Positions 53,001 to 64,000 of a DNA stretch of 64,000 bases are shown one piece after another. The notes under the pieces are model-generated. The model had not been told where the DNA came from. It did not search any database and worked only from the letters and a program-made list of their open reading frames with translations. The stretch comes from Polytrichum commune. Its lineage: Eukaryota; Streptophyta; Polytrichopsida; Polytrichales; Polytrichaceae. Where the stretch lies: NCBI GenBank assembly GCA_950295325.1, contig OX485805.1, positions 2,668,501 to 2,732,500 on the forward strand. The letters run 5' to 3'. Within the stretch, counting starts at the first letter, position 1. The number at the start of each line of letters is the position of its first letter. Both the position numbers and the translations under genes were made by a program.

Positions 53001-53661
53001 AATTTGAAGCTACTCTTCATTCGTAAACTCATTGCTATTGTTCATTGTGAAGGTCTGAAATTTTGTTAACCATTGTGGAAATTCCTATGATAAATGGGTG
53101 AATGTTGTGCCTCTTGCAATTAACCACTATAGAAGGTGCATGAGGGAATTCAAGAAAACCCAACGTTACAAGGACTCGTGAGTTGTTGGTGACAAACTTT
53201 GAAGCAATTCAAAAAAATCACCATCAATTTGAGATACCTTCACTAGAAACTGCCACCCTCAATGTAGCTTACTTATTGTCCAAACCTTCATGTCCTCTGA
53301 TCCGACTACATGATACACATGCATTTGGCGCTGCCCAAACACAAGTCTTTGGAAATTTGAAGTTCAAATTCCCGCCATGTTATTTTCCATCTCTTTTCAT
53401 CACCCTCTCCACCTTCGACTAGCCCCTCCTCTATACCTCATTGTGCACTTATAATTTGAGCAAATTATGTTTGTATCATGAGCTTTGTGACAAAACCATT
53501 CGCATTGTAGAGTCACACACATGTAGGATGATGATGTTCAACTATGACTTCCCTTCCTTCCATGGAACTCACATGAATCCTCCCAAGGACAAGGTTCATA
53601 TAGCATTTGGTTTCATATAGCTAATTTTGGATAAATATGTGGACATTGCATGTAGATAGTA
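50035..53661. other. Transposon-rich intergenic region, no gene
   Basis: No gene is supported. A GC-rich block at 51.35-52.29 kb has long overlapping frames in both strands without domains, typical of decayed LTR or coding-like repeat DNA. A short LTR-end-like sequence lies at 52584-52612. Confidence 0.45.
52584..52612 (-). mobile_element. LTR-end fragment related to the solo LTR at 57136
   Basis: Read on the minus strand, TGTGAGCGCGAATTCGTGCC then CACATGTG closely resembles the solo LTR start (TGTGAGCCCAAAATGGTGCC then CACATGTG). The opposite end was not located, so only the terminus is claimed. Confidence 0.4.
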
Positions 53662-53785
53662 CTCCCTCCGTCCCATAATGGTTGTCCTACCTCCCGGAGT
53701 TTTATATTCCAAAATGTTCGTCCAAACGAACATTTTGGGATATAAAACTCCGGGAGGTAGGACAATCATTATGGGACAGAGGGAG
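53662..53785. mobile_element. Stowaway-type MITE, 124 bp
   Basis: Ends CTCCCTCCGTCCCATAATGG / CATTATGGGACAGAGGGAG, flanked by TA on both sides (53660-53661, 53786-53787). This is the canonical Stowaway (Tc1/mariner-type) terminus and target. The element is almost entirely palindromic, centred near 53723, and would fold into one long hairpin. Confidence 0.9.
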
Positions 53786-54473
53786 TAGTACATAGTATAT
53801 CATGCATGTCAATAATTGATCAATCTAAATTGCCACCTCACAAGACACAATTCACTTGGTAGTGGCAAATGCGAAATACTCTCACCATGAAGAAACTCTA
53901 CACATCAAGTAAGGCAATACATATTTAACTTGCATCATTGGCTCAGTGACATAATTGTTTCACATAGTAATTAAACGCACATGTAGGATGTTCATGTTTA
54001 GCAATGACTTCCCTTTTATTCCACTCACATGAATCTTTCAAGAACGAAGTTTGTTGCATTTGCGTCCATATACCTAAATCAACAAAATTTTGTAGAGAAC
54101 CTATATAAAAGCACAAAGATATTGAATGTAACTGAGATGAAATTTTTTCTCTCTACACCCACTTCATGTAGGATATGCGACATGCAATTACTACAAGATG
54201 ATTTGCAAATTCTATTCATTCCCCAAGCCATTTGGCTCATAATTTTCAGAGCTCAAATAAATATTTTATTCATTATCAAAGTGAATATTCTTGTGCTCAT
54301 CAACAAGTCATCCAAGTGCCCATGAAGATTCAAAGTGCACATAAAAACCCTACAAACTTTTGGCATATGGGGTATGAATCATTTGCACTTTTGCATTCCA
54401 CGAAATTAGAACTATGTGAGACAACGTTAGTTTTTGGAGGAGCATTCCTATGGTGCAACTACGCGTTCGAAAT
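53786..54473. other. 3' flank of the LRR locus, nothing recognised
   Basis: AT-rich DNA downstream of the last recognisable LRR. No exon or poly(A) signal could be assigned with confidence. Confidence 0.45.
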
Positions 54474-57135
54474 CTACATAGAATTTGTTACCATCCAAGT
54501 TTCAAGAGAGAGTAAACACATACGTCCCTGGGGTAATGTTACCAAGCTTGTACATCCCCCCAAATCAATCTTCGTCAACGAAGTGAGGTTTCCAAGTCCC
54601 TTGGGTAATGTTGTCAAGCTTGAACATCCCTTGCATTGTTCTTTCCAAGTTCCTCGGGTAGCGTTGTCACGCTCGAACAATCACGCAAATCAAGCTACGT
54701 CAAAGAAGTGAGGTTTCCAAGTCCCCCTAATAATATTGCCAACCTTAAACAACCCCCCCCCCCCCCCCAACTCAACCTCCCTCAAAGAAGTGAGGTTTCC
54801 AAGTCCTTCGGATACTCTTGTCAAGATTGACCATCCCTTCAATTTCAACTTCGTCATTGAACAAAGGCTTCCAAGTGCCTCGGGTAATGAAGTCAAGCTT
54901 GAAAATCCCCCCAAACCAATCATCGTCAAAGAAGTGAGGTTTCCAAGTCCCTTGGCTAAGGTTATCAAGCTTCATCAATTCAACAATTGAAACTTCCCCA
55001 AATGAGGCTTCCAAGTTCCTTGGGAAATGTTGTCAAACTTCAACATCCGAACAAATTAAGCTCCCTCCAAAAAGTGAGGTTTCCAAGTCCCTCGGGTAAT
55101 GTTCTCAAACTTGAGCATCCAGCCAAATAAATCTCCGTCAAGGAAGTGAGGTTTCCAAGTCCCTCGGGTAATGCAGTCAAATTTGAGCATCCATCCAAAT
55201 AAATCTCCGTCAAGGAAGTCAGGCTTCCTAGTCCCTCAGGTAACGTTATCAAGCTTGAACATCCCCCTAAATCAATCTCCGTCAAGGAAGAGAGGTTTCC
55301 AAGTCCATTGGATAATGTTGTCAAGCTTGAACATCCCCCCAAACGAATCTCCCTCAAAGAAGTAAGGTTTGCAAGTCCCTCGGGTGATGTTGTCAATCTT
55401 GAACAATATTGCAAACCAAACATCGTCAAGGAAGTGAGGTTTCCAAGTCCCTCGGGTAATGTTGTCAATCTTGAACAATATTGCAAACCAAACATTGTCA
55501 AAGAAGTGAGGTTTCCAAGTCCCTTGGGTAATGTTGTCAAGTTTGAACATCCCCCAAATGAATCTCCGGCAAGGAACTGAGGTTTCCAAGTCCCTCGGAT
55601 AATGTTGTCAAGCTCGAACATCCCTCCAAATGAATCTCCGTCAAGGAAGTGAGGTTTCCAAGTCCCTCGGGTAATGTTGTCAAATTTGAGCATCCATCCA
55701 AATAAATCTCCGTCAAGGAAGTGAGGTTTCCAAGTCCCTCGGGTAATGTTGTCAAGCTTGAACATCCCCCCAAATGAATCTCCGTCAAAGAAGTGAGGTT
55801 TCTAAGTCCCTCGGGTAATGTTGTCAAGCTTGAACATCCCCCCAAATAAATCTCCGTCAAAGAAGTGAGGTTTCCAAGTCCCTCGGGTAATGTTGTCAAG
55901 CTTGAACATCCATCCAAATCAATCTCCGTCAAGGAAGTGAGGTTTCCAAGTCCCTCGGGTAATGTTGTCAAGCTTGAACATCCATCCAAATCAATCTCCG
56001 TCAAGGAAGTGAGGTTTCCAAGTCCCTCGGGTAATGTTGTCAAGCTTGAACATCCCCTCACATGAATCTTCCTCACAAAAGTGAGGTTTCCAAGTCCCTC
56101 GGGTAATATTGTCAAGCTTGAACATGCCCACAAATGAACCTCTGTCAAGGAAGTGAGGTTTCCAAGTCCGTCGGGTAATGTTGTCAAATTTGAGCATCCA
56201 TCCAAATAAATCTCCCTCAAAGAAGTGAGGTTTCTAAGTCCCTCGGGTAAACTTGTCAACCTTGAACATCCCTCCAAATGAATCCCCCTCAAAGAAGTAA
56301 GGTTTGCAAGTCCCAGGGGTACTGTTGTCAAGCTTGAACATCCATCCAAATAAATCTCCGTCAAGGAAGTGAGGTTTCCAAATCCCTCGGGTAATGTTGT
56401 CAAGCTTGAACATCCCCCCAAATGAATCTCCGTCAAGGAAGTGAGGTTTCGAAGTCCCTCGGGTAATGTTCTTAAGCTTGGACATCCCACCAAATGAATC
56501 TCCGTCAAGGAAGTGAGGTTTGCAAGTCCCTTGGGTAATGTTGTCAAACTTGAACATCCCCCCAAATTAATATGCGTCAAAGAAGTGAAGTTTCCAAGTC
56601 CCTCGGGTAATGTTGTCAAGCTCGAACATCCCCCCAAATGAATGTCCGTCAAAGAAGTGAGGTTTCCAAGTCCCTCGGGTAATGTTGTCAAGCTTGAACA
56701 TCCCCGCAAATCAATCACCCTCAAAGCAGTAAGGTTTGCAAGTCCCTGGGGTAATGATGTCAAACTTGAACAATTCCACAAATGAATCTTCGTCAAAGAA
56801 GTGAGGTTTCCAAGTCCCTCGGGTAATGTTGTCAAGCTTGAACATCCCCCAAATGAATCTCCATCAAGGAAGTGAGGTTTCCAAGTCCCTTAGGTAATGT
56901 TGTCAAGCTCGAACATCCCCCCAAATGAATGTCCGTCAAAGAAGTGAGGTTTCCAAGTCCCTCGGGTAATGTTGTCAAGCTTGAACATCCCCGCAAATCA
57001 ATCACCCTCAAAGCAGTAAGGTTTGCAAGTCCCTGGGGTAATGATGTCAAACTTGAACAATTCCACAAATGAATCTTCGTCAAAGAAGTGAGGTTTCCAA
57101 GTCCCTCGGGTAATGTTGTCAAGCTTGAACATCCC
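54474..57135 (-). pseudogene. Disrupted 3' part of the LRR array
   Basis: About 37 further 24-residue LRRs (minus strand) continue the array of the kinase-NB-ARC-LRR gene beyond the solo LTR. The LRR frame is broken at 56846-56850 and 55551-55555, where a C(6) tract has become C(5). Units below about 55 kb are increasingly divergent (FSSLTSLPEALGSL, YCSRLTTSPEGLANL), with a C(16)-like run near 54.75 kb, and the array ends near 54480 (TSLTKIDLGGCTSLVTLPQG). The block cannot be translated as one protein. It is either decayed 3' sequence of the upstream gene or the remnant of an adjacent tandem paralogue. A 288-bp (four-LRR) block is duplicated at about 56641-56850 and 56928-57135. Confidence 0.75.
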
Positions 57136-58660
57136 TGTGAGCCCAAAATGGTGCCCACATGTGGTGATTGACTCTTCGAAACCAATTTTAGTTTGACCTT
57201 GAGGTGTTATGATTATTCACAAAACATAAAAAGAGTGAAGTGTGGTGTGGATTTAAGTTTAGGCATTAAGTGGTGTTGTGTGATTATTTCAAGGTTTGAT
57301 TTCAATAGGAGAATGCCTTGATTATGTAAGTAGGGGGTAAGGTGAAGCAAGGTGAGCTCCGCGGGTTAAATGCCCACTTTTGGATCCACCTTGGTAGTTT
57401 AGGAAGAAGGAAGCTTGGTGGATGGGGATTAGTCCCTACTTTAGAGGTGAAGGTTAAGGGATTGTGATTGGAGGTGCTAATCCTCTCACCCTATCCTCAC
57501 CTTTCTCTCCCTCTCTCCCTCTCTCCCTCTCTCCCTCTTTGCTACTTAAGGTGTTTTCTCTCTCATTTTCCTCTCTCTCTATCTAGTGCTCTCAAGAGAG
57601 CGAGCTCTTAAGAGCTTGAGCCACGTGTGTGGATTGATTAGTTGTAGTGAAGTGAAGGAGTTAGGCTCTCTCTCTCTCAATCTCTCTCATGTGTAGGGAT
57701 CCCTTAGAATGATTAGGAAAAAAAAACCACGTGTGATTAGTTATTAACTTGAGGGAATTAGTAGGAGGATAGATTAATTATGAGTTGATAGGTTAGAAGA
57801 ATGTTAAGTTAATGACTAGAAGGGAGATTGGTTTGAAGGATTCATTAGACTTCGGTCCAAACACTGCTGGACTGGGCCAGCTGCTGGACAGCCGAGGACC
57901 TGAAACCGAGCCAGCTGTTGGAGCAGCCGAGGGCCTGAAACCGAGCCAGCTGCTGGAGCAGCCGAGGGCTTGAAACCGAGCCAGCTGCTGGGCAGCCGAG
58001 GACCTGAAACCAAGCCAGCTGCTGGAGCAGCCGAGGGCCTGAAACCGAACCAGCTGCTGGGCAGCCGAGGGCCTGAAACCGAGCCAGCTGCTGGAGCAGC
58101 CGAGGGTGGTTGGGTCTCAAGAAGTAGTGGGTAGTAGGGAGCATGTTTGGGTGACTAAAGCTTAGCTCAAATCGAGTACTATCACTCAAACTAAGCATGG
58201 GTCAAGTTAGGCATTTAGATTATCCTAGCACATATGTAAGTGTTAGATTTATTAGACTAATTAGCGTGAGGTGTGGTTTGCTAGTAAATGTAATTGGGGT
58301 GGATCATCAAGAACAGTGTTTCTAAACACTTGCATCTTCTTGGTCAAAATAAGTTACTTGTTCAAGAATGGAGAATGTGGTTGATCCTAGCAATGACAAG
58401 GCAAAGGAAGTAAAGATTAAAGGTGCTAGGGGAATGTATTTACGGGTATGCGTGGCCAAAGCCGCGGGATGGACCTTGGAGAAGTCTAATACCTCATATG
58501 GTCAAGAAACAAGTATTAATAAAACATCATGAACCTTAAAACTAGAAAGTTCACTGAGATGAAGGATATTTCTTATATCATCGAGATTTGATACCACATG
58601 TGATTCACAAACCCATCATCCGGACTAGGACGCTTAAGGGTGGTTGGGTTTGGCCTCACA
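57136..58660. mobile_element. Solo LTR (1525 bp) inserted in the LRR array
   Basis: Begins TGTGAGCCCAAAATGG and ends GGCCTCACA, with TG..CA termini, and is flanked by a 5-bp direct repeat ATCCC (57131-57135 and 58661-58665) characteristic of LTR retrotransposon integration. No gag-pol or second LTR is present, so it is a solo LTR left by recombination. Removing it with one ATCCC copy rejoins the LRR unit exactly in frame, so the target was an in-frame LRR unit. Interior features are a CTCTCTCC microsatellite near 57.5 kb and a 34/35-bp minisatellite. Confidence 0.85.
57853..58108. repeat. 34/35-bp minisatellite inside the solo LTR
   Basis: About seven units of AGCCAGCTGCTGGAGCAGCC followed by GAGGGCCTGAAACCG. 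Unit length varies between 34 and 35 bp depending on GGAGCAGCC or GGGCAGCC. Open frames through it are artefacts of the repeat. Confidence 0.85.
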
Positions 58661-58739
58661 ATCCCCCCAAATGCATCTCCGTCAAGGAAGTGAGGTTTCC
58701 AAGTCCCTCGGGTAATGTTGTCAAGCTCGAACATCCCCC
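58661..58739 (-). pseudogene. LRR unit stranded between frameshift and solo LTR
   Basis: After the C(5) tract the LRR frame resumes for one unit (GCSSLTTLPEGLGNLTSLTE, then MHLGG) and stops where the LTR begins. It is coding only if the lost base is supplied and shows that the array was once continuous across this point. Confidence 0.7.
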
Positions 58740-61700
58740 AAATGAATCTCCGTCAAAGAAGTGAGGTTTCCAAGTCCCTCGGGTAATGTTGTCAACCTTG
58801 AACATCCCCACAAATGAATCTCCGTCAAGGAAGTGAGGTTTCCAAGTCCCTCGGGTAATGTTGTCAAGCTTGAACATCCCCACAAATGAATCTCCGTCAA
58901 AGAAGTGAGGTTTCCAAGTCCCTCGGGTAATGTTGTCAAGCTTGAACATCCCCCCAAATAAATCTCCGTCAAAGAAGTGAGGTTTCCAAGTCCCTCGGGT
59001 AATGTTGTCAAGCTTGAACATCCATCCAAATCAATCTTTGTCAAGGAAGTGAGGTTTCCAAGTCCATCGGGTAATGTTGTCAAGCTTGAACATGCCCACA
59101 AATGAATCTCTGTCAATGAAGTGAGGTTTCCAAGTCCCTCGGGTAATGTTGTCAAGCTTGAACATCCCCCCAAATGAATCTCCGTCAAAGAAGTGAGGTT
59201 TCCAAGTCCCTCGGGTAATGTTGTCAATCTTGAACATCCATCCAAATGAATCTCCGTCAAAGAAGTGAGGTTTCCAAGTCCCTCGGGTAATGTTGTCAAG
59301 CTTGAACATCCATCCAAATGAATCTCCGTCAAAGAAGTGAGGTTTCCAAATCCCTCGGGTAATGTTTTTAAGCTTCGACATCCCCACAAACTAATTATCC
59401 TCAAAGAAGTGAAGTTTCCAAGTCCCTCGGGTAATGTTGTCAAGCTCGAACATCCCCCCAAATGAATCTCCGTCAAAGAAGTGAGGTTTCCAAGTCCCTC
59501 GGGTAATGTTGTCAACCTTGAACATCCCCCCAAATGAATCTCCGTCAATGAAGTGAGGTTTCCAAGTCCCTCGGGTAATGTTGTCAACCTTGAACATCCC
59601 CCCAAATGAATCTCCGTCAAAGAAGTGAGGATTCCAAGTCCCTCGGGTAATGTTGTCAAGCTTGAACATCCATCCAAATCAATCTCTGTCAAAGAAGTGA
59701 GGTTTCCAAGTCCCTCGGGTAATGTTTCTAATCTTGGACATCCCCACAAACTAATTATCCTCAAAGAAGTGAGGTTTCCAAGTCCCTCGGGTAATGATGT
59801 CAAACTTGAACATTCCCGCAAATAAATCTTTGTCAAAGTAGTGAGGTTTCCAAGTCCCTCGGGTAATGTTGTCAAACTTGAACATCCCCCCAAATCAATC
59901 TTCGTCAAAGAAGTGAGGTTTCCAAGTCCCTCGGGTAATGTTGTCAAGCTTGAACATCCCCCCAAATGAATCTTCGTCAAGGAAGTGAGGTTTCCAAGTC
60001 CCTCGGGTAATGTTGTCAAGCTTGAACATCCCCTCAAATAAATCTTCGTCAAAGAAGTGAGGTTTCCAAGTCCCTCGGGTAATGTTGTCAAGCTTGAACA
60101 TCCCCCCAAATGAATCTCCGTCAAGGAAGTGAGGTTTCCAAGTCCCTCGGGTAATGTTGTCAAGCTTGGACATCGTGACAAATTCAAGTGTGTCAAGGAA
60201 GTCAAGTTTCCAAGTCCCTCATGGAATGCTTTGAGGTTTCCGAGTCCGTCTATATCAAAGCTTTTCAAAGAATGCAATTCCCACAATTGCTCAGGCAATT
60301 GTTGAAATTTACCCTCTATAAGAATGGCCTTCAATTGACATACATTTTGTTTGTTGTTTAAATGAGGATGTTTGAATAGCCAGAAGTCGGTTGATGCATT
60401 GTTGGTATCATTATGAATTGCCAATAGTCGAAGATTGCTTAGATCCATGTCTAAACAATTGTTTTGACCTTGTAAATGGCATTGCGATATTTTGTACAAT
60501 ATACCTTCAACTTTCTTGTTGCCCTGCTTTGCAAAATGTAAAAATTATATATAAAAAATAGAATATCAATAAAATCATATATTATTGTGCAAAAAAATAG
60601 AATAAAGCAAATCATTGCAAAGATTGCACAAGAATCTAAACTGTTTATGAACATCTTGACCATCATAAACATTAAACTAATGGTCCAATAAAATCCAAAT
60701 CGAATTACACGCTTTGTTTCTATAGACTTTACAACCTAGAACAAACAATGTAAAAAAAATCATTCATTACATTTCATACCTCTTTTATGGATTGAGTTGA
60801 AGAACTCAAGTCCACGCTCCGAACTCGAGTGCCCAAGTATTCTCCATCCCTTTCCACAATCATTTGTCCCATGTCACGTAGTTGGTCGTGCATTTCTATG
60901 TGCCCATATTTGTCAACATTTACCAATGACCGCTCTATCAACATATTGAAGGATTGTATTGGGCGGATATCATTCACGGTCCACACGTGCAAGGCTCTAT
61001 TTATTGACATGCCTTTAGGCCACACATCCTTGCAAAAGAAGCATGCTATGTCCAAAAACATATTCTTTTCATCCCTTCCCAATCCATCAAAGCTTATCTT
61101 CAATGTGCTCCAAAGCTTCGTGTCTTCAAATTCTTGGTCACCATCCAAACATCTTCCCCTTTTCATTCTTCGTAATGCTCGCTCCCAACATCGCAACCTC
61201 CATTTATCCCGCAAAAATGCACCCAATACTCCTAGGCTTAAAGGCAAGCCATTGCAAGCTTCCACTATTCTTCCTCCTATATCACAAAATCCAATTGGTA
61301 AAGATTCTCCGGACCCACATGAATGAAGGATAAAAAGCTCTTTTGCTGCAATCTCATCCAATGTCTCAACCTCTATCTTGCCATTCTCCCCGACACTATG
61401 TTTAATCTTGTCCCAATGGCGGGTTGTCATAATCAATGTGATGCCCGCGTTGTCCCTCAAAATATCTGGACGTAGAACTTCATCTAGTTGATCTTCATCC
61501 CTTATGTCGTCCAATATTATGAGAACCTTCTTACCAACCATGAATTGCTTCAACTTGTTTTGTGCATCCACCAAATTTGTTGGCAAGCTTTTAGGATCTT
61601 CTCCAAAGTCTTTTAACATGTCACATATAATTCCAAGTGAATCACTTTTATTCTTCAAATCTTTGGCAAAATACGATGCATTGTATGTGGACTTCAATTC

Positions 61701-63706
61701 ATGAAATACGTCATTTGCCAATGTAGTTTTCCCAATTCCACCCATACCAATGACACCCAAAATCCTCACTTCCTTGAGGCGATCCTTGACTTTTGTAAGG
61801 TTTCGTTCAAGACCAACCACCATGTTGTTCACTTGCATGGTTGCCTCATTCACCTACACAAATAGCGCATGCAATAAGAACATAATTCTCATTCAAAATT
61901 ACACCCTCAAAGACTTGCATTTAATCCAAATCAATAGAAATAACAAGCTATAATTAGACTATTAAACATCAAAATGGTACGTACCTCTATAACATGTTTC
62001 TCCTTGACCTTCTTTGCCTTCTCAATTCTTGACTTCTTTTGGAGCGAGGCTCCATCCTTTTCAAACTTGGGACGTAGGCTTGCCGAATATGATCCTCTCA
62101 AAAACATTTTCTTCAAATCAATCAATTTTTCACAAATTTCCGAAAATGTCGGCCTTCGTAAAGGATCCTCCACCCAACATTCCTCGATCAACCTCGTAAG
62201 CTCTTCACAATTCATTGGCAATTGCGGCCTCTCAGATTCCTTAATTTTTTTCAAAATGTCTTTGGTTTTTGCAGGAAGGCTCTCAAATGGAGCAGTTTGT
62301 GACAAGATCTCTGAACATGTCATAGCAAAGGACCATACATCAGCTTGAAATAGACTTGCATGAGGTTCAAGCTTTCGATCAATTATCTCCGGTGCCATGT
62401 ATCTAGGTGTACCAACACGATAGCACTTTTGTTCCTTGGGAACTTTGCTTGGAACCTCAATGTTGGAAGTACCATAGTCAACCAACTTGACCAAATATCG
62501 CCTTGAATTCAATTTTCCTCCTTCCATGGAATTGGGTCTCATGAGCACGTTGTCCGGCTTCAAATCAAGATGGGCAACATGCATGTCATGAAGATAACAC
62601 ATGCCACTTGCAATTTGATGCATGATATCAATTGCAAGAAAATATGATAACGGTTTGGACTGCTTCAACATGCCACTCAAGCTCATGTGCATGAACTCCA
62701 TCACCAAATACAAATTCTCAAAAGAGTTTCTTGCTTTGAATTTCCGCAAGACTTTGAGAGTCCAAGAACACAACTCGTCTATGCTCCCACCAACTCCACA
62801 ATAGATGAATTTGATGAGATTCGGATGGCTCAAGCCTGCCAAAATACCAACCTCTTTGCGGAGATCTTGGATTCCATTTGAAATTGGCAAAATCTTTGTT
62901 GCACATTTAAATCCCAACCACATTGATTTGTACACAACACCAAAATTTCCTTTCCCAATTTGTTTCAAAAGTTTTGGTTTCAATGAATCAATGACAATTG
63001 GAACCTTCACACTGTCGAGTTCTCCACCCTCAAGTTGCAAGTCCCCCAATCTTTGCCATAAATGTTCTCTCCATTCATACTTGCTACCATCGTTGAGACT
63101 TTCTTGAAGAATTTCTTCGTCGTCCTCAATTTCTTTCAAGATCGGCATGTCTAGATCAAATGTAAACATGACAGGTTCCAACCGTGGACGGCTTGTTGAA
63201 TGCATCTCAAGTATCACATCCCAACAACACCTCAAATCGGACACAAGTTCTCGAAAAGCCTCCTTGTTATTTATTTGGAATGCAATTGCTCGACTTCGAT
63301 TTTGATTTCCGCATTCACTCATCACAACTCCCAATTTTTGTGTAATCCAACATAGCTCCTCCATTGCAACACCGAACTCTTGGATCTCACTACTCAACAT
63401 GATCATCTCACGAACACATGCTTCGACTTCTTTAAGCTTGGTGAGAACATGCTTACATTGCTTCTTATTCAATACTTCATTTCCATTTGACATCCCTTCA
63501 AGTCTATGTATTTCTTCCTTCTGCCATTGCAGTAAATCTCCAACATCATATTTGTCAATGGTTCCTCTTTGTTGATATGTCCAAAACATCATAAAGCAAG
63601 TTCCAATCAAATCCCAAAACCTTGATAGTTGCTCAAAAAACAATTCCAAAAGTTTCGCCATGATGAAATATTTCCTAGAAAACCATATTGTCTTGATCGC
63701 CAACAA
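58721..63706 (-). CDS. Kinase-NB-ARC-LRR resistance-like protein (PNL type)
   Basis: Three exons read on the minus strand: 63706-61985, 61853-60780 and 60523-58721, all phase 0 with GT..AG introns; 1532 residues. Exon 1: helical N-terminus, then a kinase (about 245-537) with GKGNFGVVYK (251-260), Lys271, Glu285, HLDLKPDN (379-386), DYG (410-412) and APE (438-440). Exon 2: NB-ARC with P-loop GMGGIGKTT (610-618), kinase-2 VLIILDDI, RNBS-B LIMTTR, CNGLPLSLGVLG and MHD (895-897). Exon 3: GNKKVEGILYK, then about 20 LRRs. The layout matches moss kinase-NBS-LRR immune receptors, expected to act as intracellular pathogen sensors. The kinase is non-RD, with Leu for Arg. A one-base loss at 58735-58739 ends the frame four codons later (DVRA, stop), so the product may be a truncation of a once longer protein. 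An alternative start is Met at 63661 (MAKLLELFFEQL). Confidence 0.85.
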
Positions 63707-64000
63707 GTGTCCAAAGAAATGGTAATCAACGTGGTTCCAACCATATAAAAGTGGTCATTCCATCTGCAAACATCATGTAACAAAAAGTCATAGCGACAAC
63801 CACTTTATATCTCCACAACTACAAATTTACATTGACATAGGTACATACAAATTGTCATGAAAGTATCCACTAATAAATGCAAACATATAAATCTAGTTAA
63901 TCTTGGCCCCAAATGCTCTCTTATTAGCAACATATGAAACATGACAAAGACACCACCCCTTTTGTTTCCTATACACATGCATTTTGAGTATTTAGATAGG
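63707..64000. other. 5' flank of the kinase-NB-ARC-LRR gene
   Basis: AT-rich sequence upstream of exon 1. No clear TATA box or upstream exon could be assigned, and the promoter may continue beyond the window. Confidence 0.4.

Follow-up and report, generated by a model that had tools for sequence, protein, structure and literature searches.

Three one-base losses and an early stop in the leucine-rich repeat array of a kinase–NB-ARC immune receptor gene of Polytrichum commune: a probable case of 3′-end decay

Mosses carry a class of nucleotide-binding leucine-rich repeat receptor (NLR) genes termed PNL (protein kinase–nucleotide-binding site–leucine-rich repeat), which are described as having phase-0 introns at the boundaries between the kinase and the nucleotide-binding site (NBS) and between the NBS and the leucine-rich repeat (LRR) region (Xue et al. 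2012, PMC3352924). In P. patens, the kinase-NL gene PpC24/PpKNL1 is reported to have a stop ahead of its LRR sequence, at the end of the NBS (PMC3991678), and in another study the kinase domain of a kinase-type NLR of this species is reported to give a modest, variable response in tests (PMC11218826). Here we analysed a stretch of 64,000 nucleotides of the Polytrichum commune genome (assembly GCA_950295325.1, contig OX485805.1, positions 2,668,501 to 2,732,500; hereafter the window, in whose numbering coordinates are given), which holds on its minus strand a gene of this type with an LRR exon composed of near-identical 72-bp units. The reading frame of this exon ends at a one-base loss in a G tract, and two further losses of the same kind lie beyond the stop. 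We conclude that the array probably reflects ordinary decay of the 3′ end in a birth-and-death NLR family, by slippage at a mild mutational hotspot, and not a genetic switch.

The gene has an N-terminal kinase, an NB-ARC domain and C-terminal LRRs. The protein-kinase exon (61985–63754, minus strand; Pfam Pkinase, E 2.9e-43), whose 5′ limit is the boundary of a stop-to-stop open reading frame (ORF) and not a start methionine, ends GAG/gtacgt at 61985/61984 and is followed by a predicted phase-0 intron at 61854–61984 (gtacgt...tgtgtag). The NB-ARC exon (60780–61853; Pfam NB-ARC, E 1.5e-29; WHD_ROQ1, E 5.1e-12) ends GAG/gtatga and is separated from the LRR exon by a second predicted phase-0 intron at 60524–60779 (gtatga...aaagcag). 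The LRR exon up to its first stop extends over 58721–60523, from the splice acceptor at 60524/60523 within an ORF at 60544–58721; it holds approximately 21 units (Pfam LRR_14, E 7.8e-65, and other LRR matches) and ends HLGDVRA-stop. Both introns were predicted from splice consensus in the sequence alone, and their boundaries, read by eye, fall between codons (GAG/gtacgt...tgtgtag/GTG and GAG/gtatga...agcag/GGC). From its domain order and both phase-0 introns, which it shares with the moss PNL class as described in PMC3352924, the gene is assigned to the kinase–NB-ARC–LRR immune receptors of PNL type known from mosses. It departs from that description in its LRR exon, an array of near-identical units shortened by a G-tract loss, and from PpC24/PpKNL1, as the latter is presented in PMC3991678, in that the stop lies within the LRR array, after approximately 21 units, and not at the end of the NBS. 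The Podospora het-d/het-e NLRs likewise have a sensor of near-identical tandem repeats, and are described as subject to concerted evolution, but they are fungal, have WD40 instead of LRR units, and their functional alleles usually have 11 repeats (PMC12222747).

A scan for the 72-bp LRR unit detected 58 units from 60233 to 54544. Three of these carry five Gs on the coding strand (five Cs on the plus strand), at 58735–58739 in unit 21, at 56846–56850 in unit 26 of the array scan (27 in the unit comparison) and at 55551–55555 in unit 44 (45 in the unit comparison). These G5 units are 71 bp long, and nearly all the remaining units are 72 bp; the other exceptions are three degenerate tail units (68, 82 and 53 bp) and the unit that holds a 1.5-kb insertion. 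The frames after the three losses end ...HLGDVRA, ...HLGDVQA and ...HLGDVQT, each directly before a stop. The positions of the three tracts and these endings agree with a first-pass annotation of the window, as does the open register entered upon a one-base gain (NITRGTWKPHF...), which remained open on translation; the same annotation held that most units carry G6, whereas G6 is the longest run in only 18 of 58 scored units. Only the loss in unit 21 limits the protein, as the other two G5 losses and a solo long terminal repeat (LTR)-like insertion lie beyond its stop. Outside the tract, unit 21 is identical to the G6 unit 11 at 65 of 65 compared bases, and its loss therefore looks recent.

For comparison, related loci were collected from the assembly of 408 Mb, of which seven contigs of 42–78 Mb make up 406 Mb, a number that would suit a moss with n=7. 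Among 114 genome matches, 34 full-length NB-ARC exons, including that of the window, showed at least 75% identity; all matched over essentially full length in one frame, four of them with one stop codon. The list of LRR arrays, drawn from the best candidates of 264 matches, comprises at least 35 and includes L010 and L011, although the pieces fetched for these two hold no NB-ARC. A further locus, L030 (G000:C1:36396000-36404000), stands outside the 35 arrays: its NB-ARC at C1:36404653 is 92% identical, and the 8 kb retrieved downstream of this open NB-ARC exon yielded no LRR array. Frame-breaking lesions were detected in 32 of the 35 arrays, the first lesion being nonsense in 23 and a frameshift in nine, and only in the window array was the first lesion a G6 loss. 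In L021, it was the gain of one T beside the tract, not a gain of G. The three arrays free of frame-breaking lesions were L017, L018 and L008+L009. The last of these (G000:C3:12190000-12209999, minus strand) encodes a kinase, an NB-ARC and a single open LRR frame of 5224 aa with approximately 211 units, with no indel relative to the consensus over 15 kb. Similarity between its units peaks at offsets of 57, 92, 120 and 35 units, a pattern which suggests that the array, as assembled, grew by amplification of blocks.

The 10-bp T3G6 stretch of the unit is a mild hotspot of small indels in this family. Parsing of the 35 arrays, the window's included, gave 1,968 units with 49 one-base indels, or 42 after merging near-identical copies, with a cut of 94% per-unit similarity defining independent events. 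Thirteen of these 42 fell at unit positions 52–61, the T3G6 stretch, against 5.8 expected (p=0.0035); the 13 include changes in the T run, and eight of them affect units whose G run is pure and at least five bases long. A homologous tract in the tail of the arrays is G16 in the window (54753–54768, minus strand, in a degenerate tail unit), G17 in L005, G7 in L007 and G5 in L023; the corresponding run in L011 is interrupted, and a G6 unit in L001 is perhaps another homologue, but is no closer to the tail unit than ordinary units are. As judged from these sequences, length change at the stretch is real over the divergence of paralogues, which is the scale of this comparison, and not that of a population. 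The exact pattern TTTG(n)ATGTTCNAGNTTGAC occurs genome-wide five times with G5, 101 times with G6 and never with G7. Only two of the five G5 matches are losses, both in the window, whose third G5 unit falls outside the pattern. The two matches in L001, spaced 72 bp from each other, were rejected as losses since no one-base indel was called in that array, and the match at C3:8294018 (L3_4) was rejected as no indel was called there.

Separate losses in three units are the simplest account of the three G5 tracts since, in the unit comparison, they are not sisters: the G5 units differ pairwise at 5, 6 and 7 of 65 compared sites, each with different private substitutions, and 63% of random triples drawn from the G6/G5 units of the array are at least as close. 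The losses thus look independent, and conversion of one defective unit, which the first-pass annotation had also suggested, is not supported at this locus. Copying of a single G5 unit to three places, by duplication or gene conversion, does have parallels in the family. In L035 (G000:C1:71273000-71279800), a unit that has lost one base at the tract position (GGGAG), and so shifts into the same register, is present almost unchanged as units 34, 50, 56 and 65, which points to amplification of a frameshifted unit within the array; L3_4 and L021 each hold pairs of near-identical defective units; and in the window array itself 57135–56893 and 56848–56606 share 243 identical bases at a shift of 287 bp, beside the second G5 unit, as a recent block duplication. 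At the window locus, however, the resemblance among the G5 units does not exceed that among random G6/G5 units, and the nearest relative of unit 21 is a G6 unit. Copying may have run through a short conversion tract spanning little more than the G run, but overall we consider that a single defective unit is very unlikely to be the source of all three.

Equally doubtful is the explanation that the three tracts are truly G6 in the plant. In some long-read assemblies the typical error is a base lost from a homopolymer, the missing base is the sole difference between units 21 and 11, and the locus is represented by a single assembly. On the other hand, the other 34 arrays hold 144 called G6 tracts with no change of length nearby, the 211-unit paralogue runs through 15 kb without an indel, the 34 NB-ARC exons keep one frame, and between separate loci the length of the tail tract ranges from G5 to G17. 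This evidence is indirect for the three places in question, and rarer tract errors elsewhere are possible by chance; taken together, it leaves assembly error as a quite improbable source of the three losses.

In bacteria, homopolymer contingency (phase-variable) loci change their reading frame when a G tract gains or loses one base. The window array shares with them a change of frame by one base in a G tract, but in the one assembly covered it gives no sign of reversibility, of population mixtures or of a hypermutable tract length. The first-pass annotation had suggested that the array could act as a length-variable switch for truncation; in such a switch, slippage in any unit would toggle receptor length in populations or cells. 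In its favour, the T3G6 stretch is a real hotspot, a loss leads to an immediate stop whereas a gain leaves a long frame open, and the ORF lengths of the arrays differ greatly among paralogues. The near stop, however, belongs to the unit as a whole: wherever among its 72 positions a single base is removed from a consensus array, a stop follows within 13 codons. The TGA is formed by the Leu and Thr codons that meet at the junction between units, and is found at 1765 of 1924 junctions and at 53 of 58 in the window array. With family codon usage, 62% of 20,000 synonymous recodings kept a stop within six codons of the tract and 38% kept the register entered by a gain open; with uniform usage, the figures were 66% and 29%. 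As the near stop thus survives most synonymous recoding, we saw no sign of a designed trap and set a switch by design aside. A possible rescue of the tail through programmed frameshifting was also weighed and left aside. Moreover, six Gs are short for a hypermutable tract. Gain and loss of a G were not both found within translated units, with no G7 unit fitting the exact pattern against 101 of G6, and with the two G7 units seen on parsing (L002, L007) located beyond earlier lesions. As described above, nonsense came first in most arrays, and a G6 loss was the first break in one alone. Among the titles and abstract openings of the literature covered, nothing described a G-tract reading of this kind. 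We therefore found no positive support for a truncation switch, which we regard as extremely unlikely. Decay by slippage, which the same annotation had offered as the alternative, is supported by the indel hotspot, by the independent-looking losses and by the state of the gene, with its LTR-like insertion and degenerate tail.

We propose that the LRR exon behaves as a minisatellite-like array of 72-bp units, in which replication slippage at the T3G6 stretch would have removed one G in three units independently, in a family whose arrays frequently expand and frequently break. The most 5′ of these losses would have shifted the frame, so that the receptor, if the short protein is produced, would end after approximately 21 LRRs. 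The other two losses and the LTR-like insertion, being downstream of the stop, would have been tolerated because the DNA past the stop was no longer translated. In an alternative order of events, the downstream lesions may have broken the frame first, before a loss nearer the 5′ end came to set the stop.

Downstream of the stop, the solo-LTR-like insertion (57136–58660, 1525 bp, no strand assigned) lies in the tract of unit 22 and has the ends of a solo LTR, with TG...CA termini (TGTGAG...CTCACA) and the 5-bp target-site duplication ATCCC on both sides (57131–57135 and 58661–58665). It belongs to a multi-copy family, in which at least 73 pieces of the genome, the insertion itself among them, match the query (57136–58655), and it contains 35-bp internal tandem repeats at 57876–58106. 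The orphaned LRR units 22–51 (unit-comparison numbering; 55109–58724, minus strand), which the insertion interrupts, are free of nonsense codons when aligned in the consensus frame. None was found among 142 codon differences from the consensus, an outcome with a P of 0.05 at the family post-lesion nonsense rate and of 1.5e-4 under a naive neutral rate; this is consistent with a recent orphaning of these units. Beyond them, the degenerate 3′ tail (54524–55108, minus strand) has stops, deletions of 4 and 19 bases and a gain of 10 bases, and its units resemble those of L023, L011 and L005. Outside the array, a long inverted repeat was seen by eye at 53660–53789, with CTCCCTCCGTCCC at one end; we take it to resemble a Stowaway-type miniature inverted-repeat transposable element (MITE).

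Several points weigh against 3′-end decay by independent slippage as we have described it. Changes in length of a pure G6 were found in 3 of 21 cases in the window array and 2 of 147 elsewhere (Fisher p=0.014, post hoc, with the changes in other arrays taken from L002 and L023 only), and this excess in the window array is unexplained; its p value ranges from 0.006 to 0.06 with other choices of events. The independence of the three losses was judged from units of 65 compared sites, which give little resolution. All lesions were scored relative to a single consensus unit, and first stops close to the end of an array may in some cases be natural, for example in unit 46 of 47 in L012 and unit 26 of 27 in L032. 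Finally, the ratio of missense to synonymous differences in units 22–51 (106:36) is nearer to the family post-lesion ratio (3981:1247) than to that of units 1–21 (53:27), and the tail may therefore have been free for longer than its nonsense count suggests.

As it stands, the window gene would be a truncated or pseudogenising NLR tail, of a kind ordinary in birth-and-death families. A broader reading, which we offer as tentative and unlikely, is that LRR length in this family is a running balance between the expansion of arrays, the longest of which reaches 211 units in a single open frame, and cuts that break the frame, for which the T3G6 stretch is one hotspot; the orphaned units would then be a reservoir for longer or shorter receptors. 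If this balance holds, LRR lengths may vary between individuals. In that case, the family would provide a natural system for asking what number of repeats an intracellular receptor needs, a question to which it is suited because the number of units before the first break or end ranges, in related arrays, from 5 (L011) to 211 (L008+L009).

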